64,000 nucleotides of DNA from Actinomycetes bacterium (GTDB lineage Bacteria; Actinomycetota; Thermoleophilia; RBG-16-64-13): contig JAGXFW010000004.1 in NCBI GenBank assembly GCA_024637035.1, positions 124,001 through 188,000 of the forward strand, in the 5' to 3' direction. The notes under the pieces are model-generated. The model saw only the letters and a list, made by a program, of their open reading frames with translations. It searched no databases and was not told where the DNA came from. Shown piece after piece: positions 1 to 12,989 of the stretch (within the stretch, counting starts at the first letter, position 1; each line of letters opens with the position of its first letter). The position numbers and the translations under genes were made by a program.

Positions 1-311
1 CACGTTCTACCGCCACGCTCCACCCGAAGACCGATGCCGTCGCGTCGGCGCATGCGCTACCTTCGGCACATGTCACGCGTATTGTTCAACCTCCTCTGAT
101 CTTATGACCGCTCGCGGCGGTCGCGTGGCCCCGGAATGCGCCGCGGCGCCGTATGGGTGCCGACCCGCTACCGCTCCGCCGGTTGCGGGGTGCCTGCACG
201 CGGAGGACGCACCGCCGCCCCTGATGATCACGTTCTCGAGGCGGCCGGTGATCGCGCCGAAAGGGAGGCCGCGGCGGCGTCAAGCCGTTCGGATCTACTA
301 GGGAAGACCCA
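1..311. other. No recognisable gene
   Basis: I see no reading frame here that resembles a known protein. Short open stretches exist on both strands, but none has a convincing ribosome-binding site or protein-like composition. It may be the end of a gene starting left of the window or intergenic DNA before the minus-strand gene that ends at 312. Confidence 0.4.
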
Positions 312-814
312 CTAGCCGCGCCGTCGGAAGCTTCCGGCGAGCACCCGGTCGATGGTGTCCTGATGCTTGCCCGTGAAGATCTGGCCCCAGGAGCTGGCAG
401 CATCGTACGTGCCGGCTTCCGGGTCCACGAGGAACACGCTCTGCACGATGGCCCACTGGTTGTCCACGCGGGCGACATGCTGGGCCGGTTGGATGCCGCT
501 TCGGGCGAACCCAGGCGCCAGCACGACCACCTGGATGCCGATCGCCCACAGCACGGGCAGGAATCGGCACCGGCGGGCCACCTGCCCGCGAAGTCGCTTC
601 ACGTATGGGCGAAGTCGGCCGGAGTCGGTGCCTCCGCCAGGTCGACCACGACCACCGCCCTATTGGTGTTCCTCGTCTGCCGCTTGAGTGGGAGTATCCC
701 GCCGTCGATGGTCCGGGAGGCGTCGGGAACCTCGCGGTAGCCCTGATCCGTCAGCGCCGCGGTGAGTGATGCGGTCAGCGCCGCCGTCAGTCGCGGCAGG
801 AAGTCATCGGCCAT
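312..814 (-). pseudogene. Hypothetical protein gene split by a frameshift
   Basis: Two minus-strand frames join into one plausible protein of about 167 residues. The first part (814 down to about 599) begins MADDFLPRLTAAL and ends ADFAHT. The second part continues in another frame with VKRLRGQVARRCRFLPVLW and ends RVLAGSFRRRG. The join near 603 looks like a single missing base, since one added base would restore FAHYVKRLRG. No family is recognised. The middle has a hydrophobic strand-like segment (AIGIQVVVLAPG) and the N-terminus has an Ala/Leu/Thr repeat. The shift may be a real inactivating change or a sequencing or assembly error. Confidence 0.45.
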
Positions 815-868
815 CGGCGGGCCGCCCCAGTCGCCCCAGTCGAATGTTGTCCGGACCGCCCCGACACG

Positions 869-1306
869 CTACGCCAGCAGCCGAGAGCGCACCGCCAGCT
901 GTTCCGCCGCTTGGTGCAGGTGTTCGTCGCAGGTGATCAATTCGGCGCCCGTCTCGTGACACGCGGCCAGATGGAGAGCGTCCAGGGTATCGAGCGGTAC
1001 CGCACGCTTCAGGAGCCAGTCACGGGCGCGCCCGTACGCCAGCGCGGGCACCGGCGTCAGATCGAGTAGGCCGGCGCGCAGGTCTTCCAGGTAAGCGTTC
1101 TCGATGAGCAGCGCCTGTGGCTCGTCCAATTCGCCTATGCTCACCCAACGAGCGAGCGTCGCCGCCAATTCTGCCTCAGCCAGCCGGCTCACCTTCACCG
1201 GGCTCGACAGCGACTGCAAGAACTCCTCGACCGCCCTACTCGCCGGCTCTTCGCGGTAGTAGGGGAGGAGGGCGCTCGTGTCGAGGTAGTGCTCGGGTTC
1301 AGTCAT
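869..1306 (-). CDS. PIN-domain ribonuclease toxin (VapC-like)
   Basis: This 145-residue protein has the PIN-domain layout of VapC toxins, Mg2+-dependent RNases that cut specific RNAs when freed from their antitoxin. The N-terminal HYLDTSALLPYY supplies the first conserved Asp. Acidic residues follow in the middle, and LDALHLAACHETGAELITCDEH near residues 105-127 supplies the later conserved Asp pair and the typical 'D.lHla.A...g...lvT.D' signature. It overlaps the end of the upstream antitoxin-like gene by 8 bases, as expected for a co-translated pair. The family is clear; the RNA target is unknown. Confidence 0.88.
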   Translation of the reverse strand: MTEPEHYLDTSALLPYYREEPASRAVEEFLQSLSSPVKVSRLAEAELAATLARWVSIGELDEPQALLIENAYLEDLRAGLLDLTPVPALAYGRARDWLLKRAVPLDTLDALHLAACHETGAELITCDEHLHQAAEQLAVRSRLLA

Positions 1307-1580
1307 GTTCGCTCCTCATGTCGCCCGTCATGTCGCCCGTAGGGCCGCGATCCCTCATGTCGCGGATGGGTCGAAGGCTCGCCCGAGTGCTCGGGGGCAG
1401 GCTTCCGCGCAGTTCGACCCTGCTTGGGAAGGCGATCGTCCGGATCGGCCCCCCGGCCATCGCGACGAGTCGCGCTACCGGTATGCCGCGCCTGGTGATG
1501 ACCACTTCCTCGCCCGCTCCGGCCGCATCGAGGAGGCTGGTGATGTCCGCCCTCGCTTGGCGTATGCCAACCTCACGCAT
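1299..1580 (-). CDS. Phd/YefM-type antitoxin
   Basis: This 93-residue protein starts MREVGIRQARADITSLLDAA and continues GEEVVITRRGIPVARLV, the N-terminal DNA-binding fold of the Phd/YefM antitoxin family. These proteins bind their own promoter and neutralise the partner toxin through a flexible C-terminus, here a basic and acidic tail ending at residue 93. An in-frame start 14 residues further upstream is possible, but it would place coding sequence across the palindrome at 1600-1624, so the ATG at 1580 is preferred. It is the first gene of the pair with the PIN toxin and overlaps it by 8 bases. Confidence 0.85.
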   Translation of the reverse strand: MREVGIRQARADITSLLDAAGAGEEVVITRRGIPVARLVAMAGGPIRTIAFPSRVELRGSLPPSTRASLRPIRDMRDRGPTGDMTGDMRSEHD

Positions 1581-1599
1581 CGGTTCCCCCGTCCCTTTT

Positions 1600-1624
1600 A
1601 TGTGTACATAAGAAGTGTACACAT
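1600..1624 (-). promoter_or_regulatory. Palindromic operator of the VapBC-like pair
   Basis: A perfect 9-base inverted repeat, ATGTGTACA and TGTACACAT, is separated by the 7 bases TAAGAAG. It lies 20 to 44 bases before the preferred antitoxin start. Antitoxins of this family normally repress their own operon through such palindromes, so this is the likely autoregulatory site. The assignment is inferred from position and symmetry. Confidence 0.65.
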
Positions 1625-1692
1625 AAGAGAAGCCGAGCGCGAGAGTCTCGGAACCACTCCAGATTCGCCTGGACCCTGCCGATAGTCATCCC

Positions 1693-2928
1693 ATGATCGT
1701 CAAGGCGCCCGACAGCGACCGTTCAGCCGGCGTCACCGACGCTGCCGAGCCTCCCACCGAACAGGCCGTCGCTTCCCACCTTCGCCGCGCCTTCAAGACG
1801 GACCCGGATGTGTTCGTCTTCAACGACCTGACACTGTTCTTCGAAGGCGAGGTCGTGGAGATCGATCATCTCGTGCTCCATCGAGGAGGCATGGTGGTCA
1901 TCGAGAGCAGGAGTGTCACCGGGGAAGTCGTGGTGAACGCGCTGGCCGAGTGGACTCACTGGGCGGAGACACCTCTGGAAGGCGAACTGTCTCCCGCGCA
2001 GCGGGCGGGACGGCACGAAGCGGCGCTTCGGGCGGTCTTGGCCGCGAATTCGCAGCGCCTCAGGGATCGCGCCCGGACGGAGACCGAACAGGCTCGATCA
2101 GGTCTCGATTGGCCCATCGACATCCTCATCGTGGCGGGCGACGCGTGTCGCATCACGAGAGAGGTGGATGTACCGGAGCTCTGCCGGGTGGACCAGGTGA
2201 CCGGTGAGATCGACGCGATCATCGAGCGACGCACGCACGCCCACCGTTCCTTGGTGCATAGCGATGACGGCGCGCAGAGGCTCTCCCCGGCGGAGCTGGG
2301 GCGGCTGGTGCAGTGTCTCAGTTCGAGTCATGCAGCGGAGCAGCCACAAGACCCGGGATCTGTAGACGAGGAGATGCTCGATCCGCCGGAAAGCGCGACT
2401 GCGGCGGCACAAGGACCCGTCGCGTCGAGCCCGGGATCGACGGATCCGCGTGCGACAGCCGGGGCTCCCGAGTCGGCCGTCCCGCCCGAGCCTTGGTCGG
2501 CGGATGCTGAAGCGGACGTTGAGTCGCTCGCTTCGTGCGAAACTCAGGTGCACGTCATGGCGCCCGTGCCTTCAGCGGCGACCGCGGAAGGCCCACCTTC
2601 GGCCCCCTCCGAATCGCGCGAGGCTCCTGGGTTCGATCAACCGGTCGTCGCTGACCGGACCCTGAGGCGTCCGGCCCGTGAGGAGCCGCCGCCCTTCTGC
2701 GGAGACTGTGGCAGTCTCGAGGTGCATATGCGCTATGCGCGCACCAGCCACCCCTACTACTTCCGGTGCGACCGGTGCGGCGGCATCACGCCCGCCCGAT
2801 GGGAGTGCAGCGTCTGCGGTACCCCCGCCCGCATCGTCAAGCGGGGGAGCGACTTCTTCCGCGTGTGCAAGACCTGCAATACTAGCGAGTACTTCTTCAC
2901 GAACCCGAAGATCACCCGCACGGTCTGA
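1693..2928 (+). CDS. NERD-domain protein with C-terminal zinc ribbons
   Basis: This protein has 411 residues. Residues about 20-160 resemble the nuclease-related (NERD) domain: FVFNDLTLFFEGEVVEID is followed by HLVLHRGGMVVIESR, the conserved 'iDhlvl...g..viE.K' block, with Arg in place of the usual Lys. A long low-complexity acidic, Ala/Pro/Ser-rich linker (about 215-330) leads to Cys pairs near the C-terminus (CGDCG, CDRCGG, CSVCG, CKTCN) that form two predicted zinc ribbons. NERD proteins are thought to act on nucleic acids, but the substrate of this one is unknown. It stands alone between the toxin-antitoxin pair and hgcA. Confidence 0.75.
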   Translation: MIVKAPDSDRSAGVTDAAEPPTEQAVASHLRRAFKTDPDVFVFNDLTLFFEGEVVEIDHLVLHRGGMVVIESRSVTGEVVVNALAEWTHWAETPLEGELSPAQRAGRHEAALRAVLAANSQRLRDRARTETEQARSGLDWPIDILIVAGDACRITREVDVPELCRVDQVTGEIDAIIERRTHAHRSLVHSDDGAQRLSPAELGRLVQCLSSSHAAEQPQDPGSVDEEMLDPPESATAAAQGPVASSPGSTDPRATAGAPESAVPPEPWSADAEADVESLASCETQVHVMAPVPSAATAEGPPSAPSESREAPGFDQPVVADRTLRRPAREEPPPFCGDCGSLEVHMRYARTSHPYYFRCDRCGGITPARWECSVCGTPARIVKRGSDFFRVCKTCNTSEYFFTNPKITRTV

Positions 2929-3299
2929 CCTCCGCCTCCCGCGCCACCCTGCGAGCAGGCGTGTACCGCGGCTTCATCGAGACCGGGCTGCCCCTCGGAC
3001 CTACGCTGCGCGCTGTCGCCGAGGACGGCCAGCTCACCTATGTCGACGTGCAGATGAGGGGACAGAAGCCGCCGTACTCGAATTACGTGACGAGGTAGAT
3101 CCCTCGGCGTCGATCGCCTCCTGGGTCCCGCAGGAACCCCGGGCTTGCGGATAGTCGCTCTCGTGGCCCCGCTTGTGGTGGTATGCTCGAAGTGAGCGCC
3201 GCTCCGCACCGGCCATGTTCTCGCGCGCTGCATCAGGGCAGCGCGGCAGGCGCTAGACGGCGTCGCGTCGTCCCGTCGCATCCAGGCAGGCAGGATCGC
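2929..3299. other. Intergenic region upstream of hgcA
   Basis: This 371-base gap contains one protein-like remnant (annotated separately at 2961-3098) and the leader of hgcA. I found no clear sigma-70 promoter. A weak TATGCT at 3182-3187 has no convincing -35 partner at the normal distance. Confidence 0.4.
2961..3098 (+). pseudogene. Possible C-terminal gene remnant
   Basis: A frame that is open upstream of 2961 and ends at a TAG at 3096-3098 encodes a protein-like stretch reading VYRGFIETGLPLGP and, later, YVDVQMRGQKPPYSNYVTR. The composition is like real protein rather than a shadow frame. It is only about 46 residues from the GTG at 2961, and no family is recognised. It could be the surviving end of a decayed gene or a small unknown protein. 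Confidence 0.25.
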
Positions 3300-4301
3300 A
3301 TGGACTCAGCAGCCGTACCAAACGTATCGACTCGTCTCGGCCCGACCGACATCGTCGGCCGCTGGCGGGTCCGGCTGGGCTTCCGTCGCAGCGACTACCG
3401 GGTGGCTCCCGGCCTCTATCGCGTGGGTGTGCCCGGCTCCGATTCGCCGGTACTGGTCACGGCCAACTACAAACTCTCGTTCGACGCTCTGCGTTCGCGC
3501 CTCGAAGGGGTGGACGCCTGGTTGTTGGTGCTCGATACCAAGGGTGTCAACGTCTGGTGCGCGGCGGGTAGGGGCACCTTCGGCACCGACGAGCTGGTGC
3601 GGTGCATCGAGGCGACCGGATTGGCGGAGATGGTCGGTCACCGCACCGTGGTCGTGCCGCAGCTCGGCGCTTCCGGCGTGGCGGCGCACGAAGTGCGGCA
3701 CAGAAGCGGGTTCCGCGTGGTGTATGGGCCGGTGCGGGCGGCCGACCTGCCGGTCTTCCTCCGTTCGGGCATGCGGGCCACGCCCGAGATGCGCCGCGTC
3801 ACCTTCACGATGAAGGAGCGGCTGGCGGTCACCTGGGTTGAGATCGTGCGGGCGCTGCGCTTCGTCGTGCCTCCGGTGGGTCTCGCAGTCGTCGCGTCTG
3901 CGGTGCTGGACCGCACCGGTGTGGTGGAGGTTCCCTGGGGGTGGCTCCCGATGGCCGCACCGTTCGCCGCGGCACTCGTTGCCGGGTTGGTGCTTGTGCC
4001 GGCCTTGCTCCTCTGGATACCGGGGAGGGCCTTTTCGACGAAGGGGGCGGTTGTGGGAGCCGCGGCGTCCGCGGCGGCACTCCTCGCCGTGCACGGGCAG
4101 GCGAGTGCGGCTGTTTCGATCGCGGTGTTCCTGGCCGCCACTGCGCTCACCTCGTATGTGGCCATGAACTTCACCGGCTCTACGACGTTCACGTCGGCGT
4201 CGGGGGTGGAGAAGGAGATGCGTCGGGCCATACCGTTGCAGTCGGCGGCGCTGCTCGGGGCTGCACTCTTGATGATCGCGCACCTCGGGGGGGCGTTGTG
4301 A
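3300..4301 (+). CDS. hgcA: HgcA, corrinoid protein of mercury methylation
   Basis: HgcA transfers a methyl group from a corrinoid to Hg(II), with HgcB. The 333-residue product has the full architecture. The N-terminal corrinoid domain contains PVLVTANYKLSFDALR (50-65) and the cap-helix motif NVWCAAGRGTFGTDEL (84-99). Cys87 is the predicted lower cobalt ligand. The C-terminal part has five hydrophobic membrane segments (about 190-333) and the conserved loop MNFTGSTTFTSASGVEKE. The usual motif is N(V/I)WCA(A/G)GK, so Lys is replaced by Arg91. The ATG at 3300 is chosen because homology to the family begins there (VSTRLGPTD); an in-frame ATG at 3183 would add 39 unlikely residues. It overlaps hgcB by 4 bases. 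Confidence 0.93.
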   Translation: MDSAAVPNVSTRLGPTDIVGRWRVRLGFRRSDYRVAPGLYRVGVPGSDSPVLVTANYKLSFDALRSRLEGVDAWLLVLDTKGVNVWCAAGRGTFGTDELVRCIEATGLAEMVGHRTVVVPQLGASGVAAHEVRHRSGFRVVYGPVRAADLPVFLRSGMRATPEMRRVTFTMKERLAVTWVEIVRALRFVVPPVGLAVVASAVLDRTGVVEVPWGWLPMAAPFAAALVAGLVLVPALLLWIPGRAFSTKGAVVGAAASAAALLAVHGQASAAVSIAVFLAATALTSYVAMNFTGSTTFTSASGVEKEMRRAIPLQSAALLGAALLMIAHLGGAL

Positions 4302-4657
4302 GCGGCGGCCTTGTCTACCTGCCCGGGGTGGCGACCCTGGTCTTCGACCGCGCCAAGTGCACCGGGTGCGGCATGTGCCTGACCGTGTGCCCTCACGCGG
4401 TCTTCGAGCAGGTGTCCCGGGCGGTCGAGGTGCGGGAGCTCGACCGCTGCATCGAGTGCGGTGCCTGCGCGCGCAACTGCCCCGAGGGCGCCATCGAGGT
4501 GGACCCGGGGACCGGGTGTGCTCTCGCTATCCTCAAGGGTTGGCTCTCTCGAGGCTCCCAGGGTTCATGTGGTCCGAGCGTCGTCGACGATGCCGGCTGC
4601 TCTTCGAGTGCCGTCCCTGGGGGAAGGAGCCCCGCCGCCGGGGGGAAGCCCTGCTGA
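4298..4657 (+). CDS. hgcB: HgcB, ferredoxin partner of HgcA
   Basis: The GTG start overlaps the hgcA stop (GTGA), indicating translational coupling. The 119-residue protein carries two [4Fe-4S] motifs, C21-C24-C27-C31 and C51-C54-C57-C61. The second reads CIECGACARNCPEGAI, the HgcB signature. Cys74 in PGTGCALAI matches the extra conserved Cys of HgcB. HgcB is thought to reduce the HgcA corrinoid and may pass Hg(II) through its Cys residues. The C-terminal tail is longer than usual and contains C91, a Cys in AGCSSS, and a terminal Cys119 instead of the usual adjacent Cys pair. No other ferredoxin family fits as well next to hgcA. Confidence 0.92.
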   Translation: MSGGLVYLPGVATLVFDRAKCTGCGMCLTVCPHAVFEQVSRAVEVRELDRCIECGACARNCPEGAIEVDPGTGCALAILKGWLSRGSQGSCGPSVVDDAGCSSSAVPGGRSPAAGGKPC

Positions 4658-4666
4658 GACTAAGCC

Positions 4667-4685
4667 GCGGGGGCGTGCCCCCCGC
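4667..4685 (+). terminator. GC-rich hairpin after hgcB
   Basis: GCGGGGG and CCCCCGC form a perfect 7-base stem with a 5-base loop, 10 bases after the hgcB stop. It has no run of T, so termination is inferred from position between the end of hgcB and the convergent ABC permease gene. Confidence 0.45.
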
Positions 4686-4726
4686 CCGGAACACCGATCA
4701 ACACCCGCCCGCTGTGGATCCGCCGG

Positions 4727-6019
4727 CTACCTGAAAGCCCTGATCACCGCGCGTACGCTCATCCGTCGTCCGTACATCAAGATACCGGCTCTGAAGACCT
4801 TGGCCGCCACCCACACGAGGGCGAGGATGGTGGTGAGGCTCACGACACACGTCACCACGATCTGCCAAGCAGGCGGATCCCCAAGGGCGATGCGCACGAA
4901 CATGATCATCGGGCTCGTCAGAGGGGCCATGCTGAGAAGGACGGCGCCCGCGGATTCGGGGTTGTCCATGGAGTAGATGGCCATGAACAGCACCACCACC
5001 AGTGCCATGGTGATGGGTCCGGTGATCTGCCCGGCATCCTCCGTGCGGCTCACCAAAGAACCACCCGCCGCGAACAGGCCCGCGAATGAGAAGAAGCCGA
5101 GGGTGAACAGCCCGAAGAAGGCCACGAGCAGCCAAGGATCGATGGCGGCGAACTTCAGACTCACCGGTCCCACCTGCAACCCCGAGAGCGCCCCCCGGGC
5201 GGCCAGAAGACCGAAACCCGCCGCGACCCACACCCCGTACTGGGTGAGGGCGGCCAGGCCCAATCCAAGGACTTTGCCGATCATCAATTGGAAGGGCCGC
5301 ACCGTCGAGACGATGATCTCCACCACCCGGGTGCTCTTCTCCTCGATCACTCCCATGGCCACGTACTGGCCGTAGATGATGAGAGTCATGTAGAAGAGGA
5401 GCACGAGAACGTACGTGAGCCCCCACGACTCGCCCGCCTGTTCACCCTCCACTCGCCCGATGTCGACCACCTCCGTGTCCAGCACGACCGGCCGGAACAA
5501 TTCCAAAGCCTCGGGTCCACCGATGCCCCGCTTCTCAAGGTCGAGGAAGGTACGGGCGCCCGAGAGGGCCGAGGTCAGCCGGGAGCGCTCGGCGAGGCCA
5601 AGCGCCTCGAGGGTGGTGAGCTTGAACTTTGGTCGACCGTCGATCTCTGTGATGAGTAAACCGTCGGCCTCATAGATGAGCAGGAATCCGTCGACGGTTC
5701 CCGCCGTGACTTGGGCCAGCATGCCCGCGCGGTCGGCCGAAGCCCGTTCCAGCGCGTAGCGCGGCTCGCCGCTGGCGAGTGTCTCCACCAGGTCGGCTTG
5801 GAGTCGTTCCAGATAGCCGGACGTGGCGCCCGCTTGGGCGACGGTCTCGTCGAGCACCGCGATGCGCACCTGCCGTCCGCCGAACACCGTCTCGGCGATG
5901 GTGGGCGCGAAGTTCAGCCCCACGATCGCGATCAAGCCGAACACGGTGGCGATGATCCAGCCCTTGCTCCGCACACGCGTACGGTACTCGCGCTCGACGA
6001 TCAAACGGACGACGTTCAT
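4727..6019 (-). CDS. ABC-2 type exporter permease, NatB-like
   Basis: The 430-residue membrane protein starts MNVVRLIVEREYRTRVRSKGW and has a single N-terminal membrane helix (about 22-42). A large extracytoplasmic region (about 45-190) follows, then five or six membrane helices beginning near LTYVLVLLFYMTLIIYG. This topology is typical of NatB/YhaP permeases. The sequence VIEEKSTRVVEIIVSTVRP is the conserved coupling segment of that family. It overlaps the ATPase gene by 4 bases, so the two form one exporter. Sodium efflux or peptide or antibiotic export are both known in the family; the substrate here is not evident. Confidence 0.88.
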   Translation of the reverse strand: MNVVRLIVEREYRTRVRSKGWIIATVFGLIAIVGLNFAPTIAETVFGGRQVRIAVLDETVAQAGATSGYLERLQADLVETLASGEPRYALERASADRAGMLAQVTAGTVDGFLLIYEADGLLITEIDGRPKFKLTTLEALGLAERSRLTSALSGARTFLDLEKRGIGGPEALELFRPVVLDTEVVDIGRVEGEQAGESWGLTYVLVLLFYMTLIIYGQYVAMGVIEEKSTRVVEIIVSTVRPFQLMIGKVLGLGLAALTQYGVWVAAGFGLLAARGALSGLQVGPVSLKFAAIDPWLLVAFFGLFTLGFFSFAGLFAAGGSLVSRTEDAGQITGPITMALVVVLFMAIYSMDNPESAGAVLLSMAPLTSPMIMFVRIALGDPPAWQIVVTCVVSLTTILALVWVAAKVFRAGILMYGRRMSVRAVIRAFR

Positions 6020-7053
6020 TCGGCCCCCGTCCGGTCGGCGGACTCAACACCACCGGCAGCCCCCGGTTCGCGGGTGTTTCCCATCCCGTCGGCCCCCGCT
6101 TTGTGGGCGGCCCCCGCTTCGTCGGCGGCCCCCGCTTCGTCGGCCGTGGCCTCGATGAAGATCTCCTGGAGCGAGGGGCGCTCGATGGCGAAGTACTCCA
6201 CGGTCTCGCGGGAGGCCAGCACCTGCAGTACCAGTTGTGGGTCGGCGCCCACGCGCAGCGAGAAGCGGGCGTAGTCGCGCCCGGGTTCTTCCGGGTCTAG
6301 GGGTAGGCCCCCGATGTCGGGCGGAGTCCGGGAGGCGGTTCGCACGTGCACGATCCTGCGGGCCGCCGCGTCGCGGATCGCCTCGAGGTTGCCCGAGAGC
6401 CGCAACTGTCCGCGCGCGATGATGGCCACCTCTTCGCAGAGGCCCTCCACCTGTTCCAGGCGGTGGCTCGAATAGAGGACTGTCTTGCCCCGGTCACGGA
6501 GGTCCCGCAGGGCCGCTTCGAGCAGTTCGGAGTTCAGAGGGTCGAGGCCGCTGAAGGGCTCGTCGAGCAGCGCGAGGTCGGGGTCGTGGACGAGCGCAGC
6601 GAGCACCTGCACCTTCTGTTGGTTCCCCCGACTGAGCTCGTCGAGGCGGCTGTCCTTGCGGTCGGCGATGCCGAATCGCTCGAGCCAGCGCTCGGCGGCG
6701 GCCGCGGCTTCGTCGCGAGGCATGCCGTAGAGGCGGGCAAAGAAGACGAGCTGGTCGAGCACCTTCATCTTGGGGTAGAGGCCGCGTTCCTCCGGCAGGT
6801 ACCCAAAGCGGCGACGGGTCTGGTCGTCCACCGGCCGCCCACGCCACCTCACCGTGCCGGTATCGGGCCGCAGGATATCCAGGATCACGCGCATGGTCGT
6901 GGTCTTCCCGGCGCCGTTCGGGCCGAGGAAGCCGAAGATGAGGCCTTCAGGGACGGTCAGGCTCAGTTCAGAGACGGCCTTCACGCCCTCGAAGGCTTTG
7001 CTCACGCCGTCGAGTGTCAGTCCGGTGGTGGCTCCCGATTCTGCGGGGGTCAC
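6016..7053 (-). CDS. ABC transporter ATPase, NatA-like
   Basis: The protein has Walker A GPNGAGKTTTMR, the signature LSRGNQQKV, Walker B DPDLALLDEPFSGLDP and an H-loop in YSSHRLEQVE. The C-terminal accessory domain is of the NatA/DUF4162 kind. The preferred start is the GTG at 7053, preceded by AGAGGAA about 11 bases upstream, giving 345 residues; a longer frame reaches 7197. A short Ala/Gly/Asp-rich repeat (ADEAGAADEAGAAHKAGA) sits near the C-terminus. It is the first gene of the two-gene exporter operon with the permease and diverges from the next ABC system. Confidence 0.9.
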   Translation of the reverse strand: MTPAESGATTGLTLDGVSKAFEGVKAVSELSLTVPEGLIFGFLGPNGAGKTTTMRVILDILRPDTGTVRWRGRPVDDQTRRRFGYLPEERGLYPKMKVLDQLVFFARLYGMPRDEAAAAAERWLERFGIADRKDSRLDELSRGNQQKVQVLAALVHDPDLALLDEPFSGLDPLNSELLEAALRDLRDRGKTVLYSSHRLEQVEGLCEEVAIIARGQLRLSGNLEAIRDAAARRIVHVRTASRTPPDIGGLPLDPEEPGRDYARFSLRVGADPQLVLQVLASRETVEYFAIERPSLQEIFIEATADEAGAADEAGAAHKAGADGMGNTREPGAAGGVESADRTGAE

Positions 7054-7262
7054 GTCTGTGGCGTTCCTCTCAGTTGGCGTCGCGACTACCTCAAAATCTA
7101 TCAGAAGGGCAGTGGGATCGGTCGCTGATGGGGCCCTTGTGTGTCCCGGGTGCGGATCCGTCGATGCCTGTCGGCGCGCCGCTCGGGGTATCATCACGAA
7201 TCATCGGGACACCGGTAGTTCTGGACGGTGAGGGCCCGTCACACGAGATAGTGGAGGGTGGA

Positions 7263-8327
7263 TTGAGAGCCTACGACGGACCGGCCATCGAGACCGAGGG
7301 GCTGGTGAAGATATACCGCGGAGGCACTCGTGCACTCGACGATGTGAGTCTTGAAGTGGCTCCGGGGGAGCTGTTCGGGCTGCTCGGGCCGAACGGGGCC
7401 GGAAAGACGACTGCGATCCGCGTCCTCGCGACTCTTCTGCGTGCGACGGCTGGCACGGCACGGGTGGTCGGTCTGGACGTGGTCACCCAGGCGGTCGAAG
7501 TGCGTCGGCGCCTCGGCCTAGCGATGCAGAACCCCACCCTCGACGCCTTCAGCACCGGTCGTGAGACGCTCGAGCTGGCCGGCCGGCTGCAGGGGATGGC
7601 CGCGGCCGCCGTACGGCGCCGCTCCGACGAGCTCCTTGAGCTGATGGGGCTCTCGTCGGTGGCTAAGAAGCTCGCCGGCACGTACTCGGGTGGCATGAAG
7701 CGGCGCCTCGACGTGGCCGCTGCGCTGGTGCATTGCCCCGAACTCCTGATCCTTGACGAGCCCACCGAGGGCCTTGACCCTCAGAGTCGCACGGCGCTCT
7801 GGGAGGAACTCGAGCGCATCAACGCCTCTGGTACGACCATGCTCCTCACCACCCACTACATGGAGGAGGCCGACCGCCTGTGCTCGCGGGTGGCGATCAT
7901 CGACTACGGCCGGATCGTGGTCGACGGAGCACCGGGTGCTCTCAAACAGGGCATCGGTGCCGACACCGTGGTTCTGCAGATCGAGTCCGACGGTGCGGCG
8001 GATCTGGGGGTCGTCGCCGAACCCGCCGGTGCGAACAGCGACGGAGCCGGGGCCGGCGCGCCGTCGGACCCGGTGGTGCTCGTCCGTCGGCTCCTCGAGG
8101 GGATGGTGGCGCCCGGAGCAGTGATCGCCCACCCGGTCGGTGTCAGCCTGGCCGTGCCCAACGCCAATGCGGCCGTTCCCGCGCTGCTGAGACGCCTGGA
8201 GAGCGACGGTCTGCGGGTGACGGGTCTTCAGGTGACTCAGCCGACCTTGGACGACGTGTTCATGAAGTACACCGGGCGGCGCATACGTGAGGAAGCCGCC
8301 GACCAACCACTCCTCCTGGGGTGGTGA
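7263..8327 (+). CDS. ABC transporter ATPase, DrrA-like
   Basis: This ATPase drives the export system completed by the next gene. It carries Walker A GPNGAGKTTAIR, signature YSGGMKRRLD, Walker B ELLILDEPTEGLDP and H-loop TTHYMEEADRL. Its C-terminal region matches daunorubicin-resistance type (DrrA) ATPases. The TTG at 7263 is chosen because GGAGG lies 5 bases before it; a GTG four codons upstream is the alternative. The product has 354 residues. An Ala/Gly-rich insertion sits near residues 245-270. The substrate cannot be predicted. Confidence 0.88.
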   Translation: MRAYDGPAIETEGLVKIYRGGTRALDDVSLEVAPGELFGLLGPNGAGKTTAIRVLATLLRATAGTARVVGLDVVTQAVEVRRRLGLAMQNPTLDAFSTGRETLELAGRLQGMAAAAVRRRSDELLELMGLSSVAKKLAGTYSGGMKRRLDVAAALVHCPELLILDEPTEGLDPQSRTALWEELERINASGTTMLLTTHYMEEADRLCSRVAIIDYGRIVVDGAPGALKQGIGADTVVLQIESDGAADLGVVAEPAGANSDGAGAGAPSDPVVLVRRLLEGMVAPGAVIAHPVGVSLAVPNANAAVPALLRRLESDGLRVTGLQVTQPTLDDVFMKYTGRRIREEAADQPLLLGW

Positions 8328-8334
8328 ATCGGCC

Positions 8335-9114
8335 ATGAGCGCTCTCACCGCCTTCTTCTACGAGACCTACCACCTGGGCTTGCGTACCACCCGCAGGTTC
8401 GTCCGTGTGCCGGCCAACTGGATCAGCATCATCTTTTTCCCGCTCGTCCAGCTGCTGGTCTTCAGCCAGCTCTACAAGGACATCGTGCAGTTGCCCGGGT
8501 TCGGGGGTGAGTCGAGCTACCTGGCCTATCTGGCGCCCGGGCAGGTCGCCTTCGCCGGACTGATGGCCGTGGCCTGGTCGGGATATGGGCTGCTGGTGGA
8601 GTTCCGCAGCGGATACCTGGACAAGCTACGGGCGTATCCGATCAGCCGCTGGTCGATCCTCGCCGGGGAGATGGTGCCCCTGTTCTTCCAGGCGGCCGCG
8701 ATGGCGGCTGTCATACTGGTGGTGAGCGTGTTTCTCGGGGCCACGCTGGTCACCGGGGTAGGCGGGTTCGTCCTCATCCTGGTCCTCACGGGCGCCTTCG
8801 GCGTCGCCTTCGCCGGTTCGAGCTTCATCCCGGCGCTCCTCACCAAGAGCGAGCAGGCGACGAGCACCATCTCGCTGCTGCTGTTCCCATTGATGTTCAT
8901 GTCGACGGCATTCGTACCGAAGGCTCTCATGCCGGGATGGATGCAGGTGGTCAACGACTGGAACCCGGTGACCTACCTGATCGAAGCCATGCGGGCCCTC
9001 ATGATCACCGGCTACGACTGGGGGGCGATCGGCAAGGCCGTACTGTCATTGGTGATCCTCGGCACGATACTGCAGGCGGTCACACTCTGGGCGTTCCAGA
9101 GGCTCGCGCGGTGA
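8335..9114 (+). CDS. ABC-2 type permease, DrrB-like
   Basis: The 259-residue integral membrane protein has six predicted helices and the ABC-2 permease pattern, including LAYLAPGQVAFAGLM, VEFRSGYLDKLRAYPISRW and the final STAFVPKALMPGWMQVVNDWNPVTYLIEAMR. The last is the characteristic DrrB/ABC-2 C-terminal motif. The ATG at 8335 follows the ATPase stop by 7 bases, so the two genes form one operon and one transporter. A longer in-frame start inside the ATPase gene is unlikely. Confidence 0.9.
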   Translation: MSALTAFFYETYHLGLRTTRRFVRVPANWISIIFFPLVQLLVFSQLYKDIVQLPGFGGESSYLAYLAPGQVAFAGLMAVAWSGYGLLVEFRSGYLDKLRAYPISRWSILAGEMVPLFFQAAAMAAVILVVSVFLGATLVTGVGGFVLILVLTGAFGVAFAGSSFIPALLTKSEQATSTISLLLFPLMFMSTAFVPKALMPGWMQVVNDWNPVTYLIEAMRALMITGYDWGAIGKAVLSLVILGTILQAVTLWAFQRLAR

Positions 9115-9401
9115 GCGCGCATGACGATGCGGATCGCAGCGCGGCCATGGCGGCGCGGCCGTGGCGGGCTCGGGGCCCGGAGGTGGTGCTCGGGCCGGCG
9201 TGAGAGCGGGAGCATCGGCAGGTCCCGCCTAGTTGGATCACGCGGGAGAACGTCGGTGTGGGGCCCGCGTGGATCGAGCAGGAGACCCGGCGTTCACGCG
9301 ATGGCCCCGCGCGGGGCGTGACCCCTGATCACGGGGCGCCGGCCGGAGATCCAGCGGGTGTTCGACAGCCGACACACTTCTTTCGGTCGGTTCGCTGCGG
9401 A

Positions 9402-9863
9402 CTAGTGGCTGACCGGCTGGGCTTCGGCGAGGAGCTTCAGGTTCTCGAGGCTGTGGCGGAAGTCTCGGCTCTGCAGCTTCTCGATGAGGAGTCGGTCCGC
9501 TATCTTGCCCAGCACGCTTCCCGGCAGGTTGTATTCGAAGTCCGTCGTGATGGTCGTCCCTTCCTTGTCCGGTTGATGGTGGCAGGACAACGAGCCGGAG
9601 GTCGATCCTTCGAACTTCCAGCGCCAGTCCGTGCTTCCATCGGGGTTGTGGCGTTCTTCCACGGTCTCTTCCGTCTCGTGCATGCTGACACCCAGCATGT
9701 GAAGGTCGAACTCCACCTTGGTCCCGGCCCCCCCGTCGCCGTCGATGCGGTCGGGTTCGCTCATGCCGACCCAGAAGTTGGGCCATTGGTGAGGATCACG
9801 CACTATCTCGTCGACGCGGGCCACCGGGGCGTTGATGAACAGGCTTTCCGTGAGATGGGCCAT
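9402..9863 (-). CDS. SRPBCC-fold (polyketide cyclase/START-like) protein
   Basis: The 153-residue protein begins MAHLTESLFINAPVARVDEIVRDPHQWPNF, the standard opening of SRPBCC proteins (beta strand, helix, then 'd...wp.f'). It continues through alternating strands (FDLHMLGV, WRWKFEG, TITTDFEYNLPG) and ends in a long C-terminal helix. Such proteins bind small hydrophobic ligands in a deep cavity. The ligand and role are unknown. The ATG at 9863 is used rather than one 8 codons upstream because family homology starts there. Confidence 0.75.
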   Translation of the reverse strand: MAHLTESLFINAPVARVDEIVRDPHQWPNFWVGMSEPDRIDGDGGAGTKVEFDLHMLGVSMHETEETVEERHNPDGSTDWRWKFEGSTSGSLSCHHQPDKEGTTITTDFEYNLPGSVLGKIADRLLIEKLQSRDFRHSLENLKLLAEAQPVSH

Positions 9864-10276
9864 TGTCAGATCCCTTCTTCGCTGCATCCTCCCGTGCTGT
9901 GGGCCGAGTCTCCTGTACGTCTACCCTAGTGTTTCTGAAGCGACAGGTCAAACGGGAAGTTACGAGCGGGCGGTTGCCTCCGGCAGCGGGGCCGCGGGGG
10001 CTGGCCCACGCGCCGACCTCCGAACCCGGGGGCTACGCCCCACGCCCAAGGTCACCCCAACGATCCGACTCCATGAAGAAGAAGCTCGCGCGAGTGGCAC
10101 GAGCAGCGTACACGGCGGCCTTCTCGGGCGTCCACATGTCGATACCTTTTACGTCCCCTTCACACCTGTCTGCGATAGTCGATAGAGAAACCGGAGTGCT
10201 CGCGAGCATATCGACAAGGCGTCGATCCGATCCGAGCAGTGAAGCCGGGAGCCGGCGCGAAAGGAGCCTGAACACG
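9864..10276. other. Gap without a convincing gene
   Basis: This 413-base stretch separates divergent genes. A plus-strand frame starting MKKKLARVARAAY runs into the following SHOCT gene, but it has no ribosome-binding site and the SHOCT gene has its own. I call no gene and see no clear promoter. Confidence 0.4.
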
Positions 10277-10627
10277 ATGGGCGGCGGCGGGATGATGGAT
10301 GGGTTTGGTGGCGGCCTGGGCGGTCTGGGCGGCGGTCTCGGAGATGTTGGAGGTCTGATGATGGGTTTTGGGCTGATGGGTTTGGTGCCGTTATTGGTAT
10401 TGGGCGCGATCGTCTGGCTGGTGATCGAAGTGACGAGAAGTCGCGGCTCGGCCGCTGTTCCACCCTCGTCCGGGTACGTGCAAGCTCCCATGTCGCAGGC
10501 TCCCGTGCCTGCCCCTGCGCCGCGGAACGGCGCCATGGACATCCTGGCCGAGCGATACGCGCGGGGCGAGATCGACCGAGACGAATACGTGGCGCGGAAA
10601 GCCGACTTGGTGGGCCACGCCGACTGA
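10277..10627 (+). CDS. Small SHOCT-domain membrane protein
   Basis: The 116-residue protein has a Gly/Met-rich N-terminus (MGGGGMMDGFGGGLGG), one membrane helix (about 40-60, LVPLLVLGAIVWLVIEV), a Pro/Ala/Ser linker and a C-terminal SHOCT motif, MDILAERYARGEIDRDEY. SHOCT is a short oligomerisation motif common at the ends of bacterial membrane proteins. The start is set by AGGAG 10 bases upstream. The function is unknown. Confidence 0.8.
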   Translation: MGGGGMMDGFGGGLGGLGGGLGDVGGLMMGFGLMGLVPLLVLGAIVWLVIEVTRSRGSAAVPPSSGYVQAPMSQAPVPAPAPRNGAMDILAERYARGEIDRDEYVARKADLVGHAD

Positions 10628-10877
10628 CTCGTAGCCTGGCGCGGACTGAACGGAGTGCGGCGAGGTTGTCGCTCGCGTCCGATCGCCCACCCAGGAGTGC
10701 GGGCCGGGCGAGGTTCGCTTCGGATATCGACTCTCCGGGGGTCGCCGCCGGCGAGGATCGAGCGCGGAAGGCACAGGCGTAGGGGGTATAGTCTTCTCCA
10801 GAGAGGTCGCCCTGGGGGAAGTCCATCGGGGGGAGCGGAGGCATTCGGGACCGACCGGCGTCCTGACTGGAGGCGGC

Positions 10878-11192
10878 ATGATCGGTGAAGAGCGCAAAGA
10901 GACACCGGTGGAGGTTCCCCCCGACGAGTCACACGACGCCTTCCGCGCCGAGGCCTACAACCGCATGGAGCGCGGAGCGGGCTGGATCTTCCTTTCGGTG
11001 GGCTCGATCGTTCTCATCGCGGGTGGGCTCTACGAACTGGCGGTGAGCCTGCTCCGAGATGCGGCGGATCCATGGTGGGTCCGATTCGGCGTAGCGGCCC
11101 TTGTGGTAGGGCTGGCCGTGTTGTTCGTGTCGGTGGTCAGAGAACGTATCTTCGTGTTCAAGCGAGATCCGTACAAGGAGGTCGAACGATGA
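10878..11192 (+). CDS. Small two-helix membrane protein
   Basis: The 104-residue protein has a charged N-terminus, two membrane helices (about 34-55 and 70-92), and a basic C-terminal tail ending FKRDPYKEVER. I do not recognise a family. It overlaps the following UPF0145 gene by 4 bases (ATGA), so the two are co-translated. Membrane anchoring of a partner complex is possible but not shown. Confidence 0.7.
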   Translation: MIGEERKETPVEVPPDESHDAFRAEAYNRMERGAGWIFLSVGSIVLIAGGLYELAVSLLRDAADPWWVRFGVAALVVGLAVLFVSVVRERIFVFKRDPYKEVER

Positions 11193-11503
11193 TCCTGGCC
11201 ACCACCGAGTCTGTCCCCGGGCGAGAGATCACAGAAGTCATCGGCGTGGTGCGGGGGAATACGATCCGGGCGAGGAATGTGGGCCGCGACATCGTGGCCG
11301 GCCTGCGCAACATCGTTGGTGGCGAGATCACCGAATACACGAAGCTCATGGCCGAGAGTCGAGAGCAGGCCCTCGACCGGATGATCGCGCGAGCTGAGGA
11401 GGCCGGCACGGATGCGGTGCTCGGGATACGTTTCACCACCTCGATGGTGATGTCGCAGGCCTCGGAGATACTCGTGTACGGCACGGCGGTTCGACTGAAG
11501 TAG
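11189..11503 (+). CDS. UPF0145/YbjQ-family protein
   Basis: The 104-residue protein matches the YbjQ (DUF74, 'heavy-metal-binding') family along its whole length. It has TTESVPGREITEVIGVVRGN, a central VGRDIVAGLRNIVGGEI helix, REQALDRMIARAEEAGTDAVLG and a final strand. The family forms pentamers of unknown function. The start overlaps the preceding membrane protein gene, and AAGGAGG lies 8 to 9 bases upstream. Confidence 0.88.
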   Translation: MILATTESVPGREITEVIGVVRGNTIRARNVGRDIVAGLRNIVGGEITEYTKLMAESREQALDRMIARAEEAGTDAVLGIRFTTSMVMSQASEILVYGTAVRLK

Positions 11504-11663
11504 GCGGGGCCGCGATCACCGGTTGGGGGATGCGCTCGGTGAGACTGAGGTAGGCCCGGCGTCATCCCGACGACCGCAGCCGCGCGCGACGACCGCAGCC
11601 GGCGAGCGCGGGTCTCCCGCTGTGAGGCGAGCCTGATCCGCGGCTCTGGGCTATCATGACCTC

Positions 11664-12989
11664 ATGCCCGCCTCCCCGACGCTGACTCTGGGCCGCGTCG
11701 CCAAGACGTGGTGGCCCCTGGCCCTGAGCTGGCTGCTCATGGGGCTCGAGGTGCCCGCGGTCAGCGCAGTCGTGGCCCGTCTGATAGAACCGAAGGTGAA
11801 CCTCGCCGCCTTCGGGGGCGTCGTGTTCCCTTTGGCCCTGCTCATCGAATCACCCATCGTGATGCTTCTCGCCGCCTCCACGGCTCTGTCCAAGGACCGG
11901 GCGGCCTACCTGAAGATCAGACGCTTCATGCTCTGGATAAGCGCGGCCCTCACGCTCATCCACGCGGCCATCGTGTTCACACCGCTCTACGGGGTGGTGG
12001 TCGGTTCGCTGATCGATCCGCCGGCCGAAGTGGTGGGCCCGGCCCGGGTGGGGCTCGCCATCATGATCCCCTGGACGTGGGGCATCGCCTACCGCCGTTT
12101 TAACCAGGGCGTGCTCATACGCTTCGGCCATTCCGGGGCCGTGGGCACCGGCACTCTCATCCGCCTGGCGGCCGACGCTGCCGTGCTTACAGTCGGCTAC
12201 GTCGTGGGCTCGATCCCCGGCATCGTGGTGGCTGCCGTGGCGATGAACGCGGGGGTGTTCTCGGAAGCGTTCTACGTGAAGCGCCGTGTCACACCGGTGC
12301 TGCGCGACCAGTTGCCCGATTCGGCGCCCGGTGCGTCTTGGCTGGGTCTGCGTGCCTTCCTTGCGTTCTACATCCCGTTGTCACTCACCTCGGTCATCGC
12401 TTTGTTCGCGAGCCCTCTGGGGAGCGCGGCTCTGAGCAGGATGCCCAACGCGCTCGACTCGCTCGCCCTGTGGCCCGTGGTGACCGGAGTGAGCTTCGTA
12501 TTCAGGAGCTTCGGCTTCGCGTTCAACGAGGTGGTGGTGGCTCTGCTCGACGAACGCGGCTCCTTCCCGGCGTTGCGACGTTTTGCGTTCTTGGGAGCGG
12601 CCGCGACGTCCGTGGGACTCATGGCGTTTCTCGTGCCCCCGGTGGGCGACTTCTGGTTCCACGACGTGATCGGGCTCCCGCAGGGCCTTGCCGAAGTCGC
12701 ACGCACGAGCTTGTGGTTCGCCCTGCCCCTACCCGCGCTCAGCATGCTGCAGAGCTGGCTGCAGGGCATGGTTGTGCACAGTCGCCGTACCCGGTTGATC
12801 ACTGAGGCGGTCGCTCTCTCGCTCTTCAGCATGTGTTCCGTGCTCGTAGCGGGCGTACTCGGTGGTGGCGTTGTGGGCCTCTACGTGGGGGTTGCCGCGC
12901 TCACCGTGGGCGACTCCATACGCACCGGGCTGCTGGCGTGGCGCGGTCGCGGTGTGTGGCGCGTGCTCGCGGAAGATGCCGATTCCTAG
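11664..12989 (+). CDS. MOP-superfamily transporter, ANKH-like
   Basis: The 441-residue protein has about 12 hydrophobic segments and no large soluble domain. Its N-terminal repeat (WPLALSWLLMGLEVPAVSAV, then FPLALLIESPIVMLLAAST) resembles the MATE/ANKH group of the MOP superfamily, in which ANKH proteins export pyrophosphate or related anions. I recognise the ANKH-type 'ESPI.ml...st.l' segment but not the substrate site. It stands alone, with 160 bases of non-coding DNA before it containing the repeated 15-mer CGACGACCGCAGCCG. Confidence 0.6.
   Translation: MPASPTLTLGRVAKTWWPLALSWLLMGLEVPAVSAVVARLIEPKVNLAAFGGVVFPLALLIESPIVMLLAASTALSKDRAAYLKIRRFMLWISAALTLIHAAIVFTPLYGVVVGSLIDPPAEVVGPARVGLAIMIPWTWGIAYRRFNQGVLIRFGHSGAVGTGTLIRLAADAAVLTVGYVVGSIPGIVVAAVAMNAGVFSEAFYVKRRVTPVLRDQLPDSAPGASWLGLRAFLAFYIPLSLTSVIALFASPLGSAALSRMPNALDSLALWPVVTGVSFVFRSFGFAFNEVVVALLDERGSFPALRRFAFLGAAATSVGLMAFLVPPVGDFWFHDVIGLPQGLAEVARTSLWFALPLPALSMLQSWLQGMVVHSRRTRLITEAVALSLFSMCSVLVAGVLGGGVVGLYVGVAALTVGDSIRTGLLAWRGRGVWRVLAEDADS

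Follow-up and report, generated by a model that had tools for sequence, protein, structure and literature searches.

HgcA, a corrinoid protein, and HgcB, a ferredoxin, are the products of the hgcAB genes, the marker of organisms able to make methylmercury; each new lineage found to carry them helps to assign sources in anoxic environments. The mechanism and the residues involved were worked out in Pseudodesulfovibrio mercurii ND132 (PMC11588087, PMC7305189). Mutagenesis in ND132, as summarised in PMC7305189, showed that the cap-helix cysteine of HgcA, Cys73 of HgcB and at least one C-terminal cysteine are required. Among Actinobacteria, 17 hgcA-positive metagenome-assembled genomes (MAGs) were reported in 2020 (McDaniel et al., PMC7438021), and according to the same study individual hgc transfer events and their mechanisms are still to be pinpointed. 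Herein, an hgcAB pair is described at positions 3300-4657 of a 64,000-nucleotide stretch (the window), which covers bases 124001-188000 of the 215-kb contig JAGXFW010000004.1. The genome is 3.57 Mb in 34 contigs, with 100% completeness and 1.6% contamination. Judged from sequence, the pair is very probably a genuine and apparently intact operon of an anaerobic actinobacterium with the Wood-Ljungdahl pathway, acquired or retained at a chromosomal site that is variable.

The hgcAB pair and its products

The open reading frame at 3300-4301 on the plus strand encodes a protein of 333 amino acids, which was scored against NCBIfam models with their curated cut-offs. The HgcA_corrinoid model NF040863 (cut-off 275 bits) was exceeded with 419.9 bits (E=6e-126), and its profile positions 1-321 were matched. 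The lower-ranked models were an HgcAB-like fusion at 208 bits (cut-off 285) and the gamma subunit of acetyl-CoA decarbonylase/synthase at 80 bits (cut-off 306). The only Pfam hit was a partial, single-domain match to CdhD at 52 bits. The cap-helix motif N(V/I)WCA(A/G)G is found as NVWCAAGR, with Cys87. When 72 HgcA sequences were aligned, the protein agreed with 72 of the 75 columns that reach a conservation of 90% or more. The family is expected to carry a C-terminal membrane domain of five helices. Residues 180-333 consist of hydrophobic segments, in which hydropathy does not resolve the number of helices.

The hgcB gene (4298-4657, plus strand) adjoins hgcA and shares four bases with it (GTGA, 4298-4301). 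It starts with GTG and encodes a 119-residue ferredoxin with 113 bits (E=4.5e-33) to the HgcB_ferredoxin model NF040864, whose cut-off is 99 bits. Both 4Fe-4S motifs (CxxCxxCxxxCP) are present, at Cys 21/24/27/31 and Cys 51/54/57/61. The extra cysteine, Cys74, lies within CIECGAC and corresponds to the conserved cysteine expected about 12 residues past the second motif. The long tail carries Cys91, Cys101 and Cys119, the last of which ends the protein (...GGKPC), so that at least one terminal cysteine is present. Every cysteine required in ND132 has a counterpart in the two proteins. The sequence identity of the pair, its intact frames and its catalytic cysteines are directly established, as is the integrity of the contig by synteny.

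A sequence-only reading of this DNA had named both genes, with the same frames, overlap, NVWCAAGR motif with Cys87 and ECGAC ferredoxin with Cys74, and each of these was recovered. The high HgcA profile score that it anticipated was obtained, and the competing CFeSP and CdhD scores came out far lower (80 and 52 bits), in support of its identification.

Several observations weigh against this picture. In the cap motif, the lysine present in 96% of the 72 sequences is replaced by Arg91 (K91R), and two conserved prolines of HgcA are substituted (P179W and P238L). HgcB has an unusually long tail, which ends in a single cysteine without the terminal Cys-Cys pair. Furthermore, a 99% complete genome of the same genus, G001, is without hgcAB.

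The chromosomal site and its history

The best full-length matches of the host RpoB are a set of actinobacterial polymerases in PDB, which we take from their entry codes to be those of Streptomyces and Mycobacterium. These matches support Actinomycetota as the phylum of the host, in a placement that uses the PDB comparison only. A further RpoB comparison, with the named genome of Coriobacteriia from which L079 (a MAG discussed below) comes, did not settle the class. The host genome holds five more matches to the CdhD family. Two of these are strong and lie near each other on contig C17, in keeping with a carbon monoxide dehydrogenase/acetyl-CoA synthase (CODH/ACS) pathway. A search for MerB in six genomes gave no match; the control genomes likewise gave none, so the absence of MerB is not established.

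Window positions 1-12000 were aligned to G001. All matches fell collinearly on one contig, C51, and covered window positions 868-2928 (toxin-antitoxin and NERD genes), 2952-3103 and 4706-9117 (ABC exporters). The left flank is a NERD-domain protein gene (1693-2928, plus strand; PF08378), aligned to C51. The right flank is an ABC-2 exporter permease and ATPase (4727-7197, minus strand; PF12698, PF00005), aligned to C51:35341-39689. The neighbours listed in the earlier reading, namely a PIN toxin with a Phd antitoxin, the NERD protein and the ABC exporter, were all found.

Between these flanks the two genomes differ. After the NERD gene, G001 carries genes for a CooS-like CO dehydrogenase, a ferredoxin and an intact FAD-dependent oxidoreductase, and before the exporter it carries an 8.9-kb V-type ATPase operon (all names read from translations). 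The last 152 bp of the G001 oxidoreductase gene correspond to window positions 2952-3103 on the plus strand, a scar of its 3' end with 86% DNA identity to C51:48624-48776. Of the 13-kb G001 block, only this scar and a 67-bp match elsewhere remain in the window's genome. Since the block is otherwise missing, the hgcAB-bearing interval is set at 3104-4705 (plus strand). By the DNA alignment boundaries and the gene content of G001, this compact interval of about 1.6 kb has hgcAB as its only recognised genes and is absent at the G001 locus. Its G+C content is 0.70, compared with 0.655 for the window. No tRNA gene was found in a search of the window, and the repeats flanking the interval are short and imperfect only, so that no insertion mechanism was found. 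The CO-dehydrogenase module and V-type ATPase operon of G001 (L170:6261-19125, on C51) are themselves present in one species of the genus and not in the other.

The distribution of HgcA was surveyed at two levels. In the class, a strong HgcA match was found in 15 of 299 genomes and exceeded the cut-off in 13; among 396 genomes sampled evenly across the phylum, the cut-off was exceeded in 10, with other families of the phylum represented among them. Within the window's own family, the only other genome with a match is G004. Its HgcA (L010, contig C202) and the HgcA of G057 (L011, contig C15), a genome of a different family, differ at a single residue, and the G004 contig looks like a misbinned one. 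Because McDaniel et al. had already reported hgcA-positive Actinobacteria MAGs in 2020, hgcA in this phylum is not new taxonomically, and the operon is of a known kind. The earlier reading was right that actinobacterial hgcA is known from MAGs; it overstated the rarity, given that publication (PMC7438021) and the 13 of 299 class genomes.

Phylogenetic analysis of 72 HgcA proteins was performed via IQ-TREE. The window HgcA forms a long branch (0.67) that is weakly placed, with no well-supported group around it, and the most similar protein, from a Desulfuromonadales MAG, is 52% identical to it. Of the families of the class, f6 forms one clade (100/100) and f3 a second, next to which L079, a Coriobacteriia MAG, is placed (98/86). 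The clade with other actinobacterial HgcA that had been expected was thus not found. A constraint holding all same-class sequences together with L079 was marginally disfavoured (p-AU, approximately unbiased test, 0.045). A constraint joining the window sequence with the actinobacterial f26 and f32 sequences was neither shown nor rejected (p-AU 0.29). The tree fits multiple acquisitions of hgcA in the class and identifies no donor.

Two side observations came from the same set of sequences. In three f3 loci (L008, L009 and L017), the corrinoid domain of the HgcA frame is preceded by a long in-frame upstream part in which Cys-Cys motifs (CCGS, CCGA) are abundant. Two different hgcA-bearing contigs, L074 and L077, lie within one Dehalococcoidia bin (B4_bin.11).

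Two findings favour a gain of hgcAB, probably a recent one, by the lineage of the window over a loss in the sister species: four other members of the family carry parts of the 13-kb block, and hgcA is absent from every other family member that is not suspect. The alternative is an ancestral hgcAB at this locus that disappeared from the sister lineage, in which the V-type ATPase and CO-dehydrogenase genes were gained or retained. This is unlikely. In its favour, the comparison within the genus consists of two genomes only, and DNA resembling the ATPase block is present in just some family members. Against an ancestral hgcAB stand the oxidoreductase scar, which indicates that the window lineage formerly had the CO-dehydrogenase-side genes, and the restriction of hgcA, elsewhere in the family, to the suspect G004 contig. 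The locus contributes a divergent HgcA from an actinobacterium and a presence/absence site with clear boundaries that distinguishes two congeneric species, of which the one lacking hgcAB has a cluster of ATPase genes in that position.

The 3' end of hgcB

The hgcB frame ends in TGA at 4655, followed by an in-frame GAC TAA and a GC-rich hairpin at 4667-4685 with a 7-bp stem and a 5-nt loop (feature 4655-4685, plus strand). The TGA is read here as a stop codon. The hairpin that the sequence-only reading had placed after the genes exists; it folds no better than shuffled sequence of equal composition (z -0.72) and has no U tract.

The TGA could instead encode selenocysteine (Sec), with the hairpin as a Sec insertion sequence (SECIS), so that HgcB would be a selenoprotein with a C-terminal Cys-Sec-Asp in place of Cys-Cys. 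In frame, the 3' end reads GGKP-TGC-TGA-GAC-TAA. The hairpin agrees with a bacterial SECIS model from the literature (PMC13188914), with 16-nt spacing, the 7-bp stem, the loop CGUGC and -14.0 kcal/mol. Moreover, selA adjoining selB, together with a tRNA-Sec gene (72.6 bits), lies on the same contig as hgcAB. Sec forms of both proteins are already known, with HgcA as a CU form and HgcB carrying Sec at another cysteine, the GVGC position (GVGU) (PMC13188914). The control stops in these genomes speak against this reading, as a compliant hairpin follows 14 of 97 and one of equal or greater strength follows 4 of 97. The z-score is likewise unfavourable, and 59 of 98 stops here are TGA, which makes it the most frequent type. 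None of the close homologues has a cysteine aligned with this TGA, and L089 and L099, two known Sec-HgcB genes, fail the same strict hairpin scan. A selenoprotein is therefore improbable, and it is just as doubtful that the Cys-Sec-Asp tail represents an HgcB Sec site beyond those listed in the 2026 selenoproteome review (PMC13188914). If true, the tail would put selenium beside the proposed Hg(II)-delivery thiol of HgcB. The terminal TGA was also considered as a feature common with L037 and was dropped, as L037 has no compliant hairpin.

In-frame TGA codons were seen in other hgc genes. In L089 and L099, from two Desulfobacterales MAGs, the TGA lies at the conserved Cys73 of HgcB (GVG*AAYI, the asterisk marking TGA), which is the known selenoprotein form. 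In L016:1501-2478 (G019, same class), a TGA replaces the tryptophan just before the cap-helix cysteine of HgcA (NI*CAAGK); it may be a sequencing error, a pseudogene or an unusual Sec codon, and no compliant hairpin lies downstream.

Contig integrity and comparison with known systems

A misassembly or an error of binning that joined the hgcAB segment to this genome would account for the absence of hgcAB from G001, and bins of this class may hold foreign hgcA contigs, as the near-identical HgcA of G004 (f1) and G057 (f6) suggests. This explanation is very improbable here. Both flanks of hgcAB are syntenic with a single G001 contig, and the pair lies well inside the 215-kb contig, at 127.3-128.7 kb. 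Fewer than 200 bp separate the genus-specific scar from hgcA. In codon usage the pair resembles the host, with hgcA ranking 24 of 52 open reading frames in the window and both genes unremarkable. It is very unlikely that a join of unrelated contigs would fall exactly in a genus-specific deletion scar. Chimerism was rejected on the synteny of both flanks, and the contig appears not to be chimeric, as far as its letters can tell.

It is extremely improbable that the corrinoid protein is a CFeSP/CdhD-type Wood-Ljungdahl subunit: the top PDB structures are CFeSP gamma subunits (2h9a, E=1e-14), matched weakly over residues 14-155 only, and against this identity stand the profile scores on which it was rejected, the putative membrane domain, the HgcB partner and the separate strong CdhD-family proteins on C17. 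HgcA does share a homologous corrinoid-binding domain with the CFeSP large subunit (AcsC/CdhE, PF03599). The latter has neither a membrane domain nor a cap-helix cysteine at the HgcA position and is part of CODH/ACS.

By homology with the ND132 proteins, the two 4Fe-4S clusters of HgcB would pass electrons to the HgcA corrinoid and reduce it. Cob(I)-HgcA would then receive the methyl group of S-adenosylmethionine, and Cys87 of the cap helix would be the lower axial ligand of the methyl-Co(III) form. The methyl group would be transferred to thiol-bound Hg(II) brought by the HgcB cysteines, yielding methylmercury. We infer that in this host the pair is expressed, that the cofactor is loaded and that mercury is the substrate.

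The locus resembles that of ND132 in the cap-helix cysteine (Cys87 here, Cys93 in ND132), the putative membrane domain, the two 4Fe-4S motifs, the extra HgcB cysteine (74 here, 73 in ND132) and the adjacent genes in unchanged order. Unlike ND132, it has arginine for lysine in the cap motif and a longer HgcB tail with one final cysteine instead of Cys-Cys; its host is actinobacterial, and it is known from sequence. Similarly, it shares its phylum, the gene pair and a poorly characterised lineage with the published hgcA-positive Actinobacteria MAGs (Coriobacteriia OPB41, Thermoleophilia, UBA1414 and RBG-13-55-18; PMC7438021). Its HgcA is set apart from the actinobacterial HgcA clades of the present tree.
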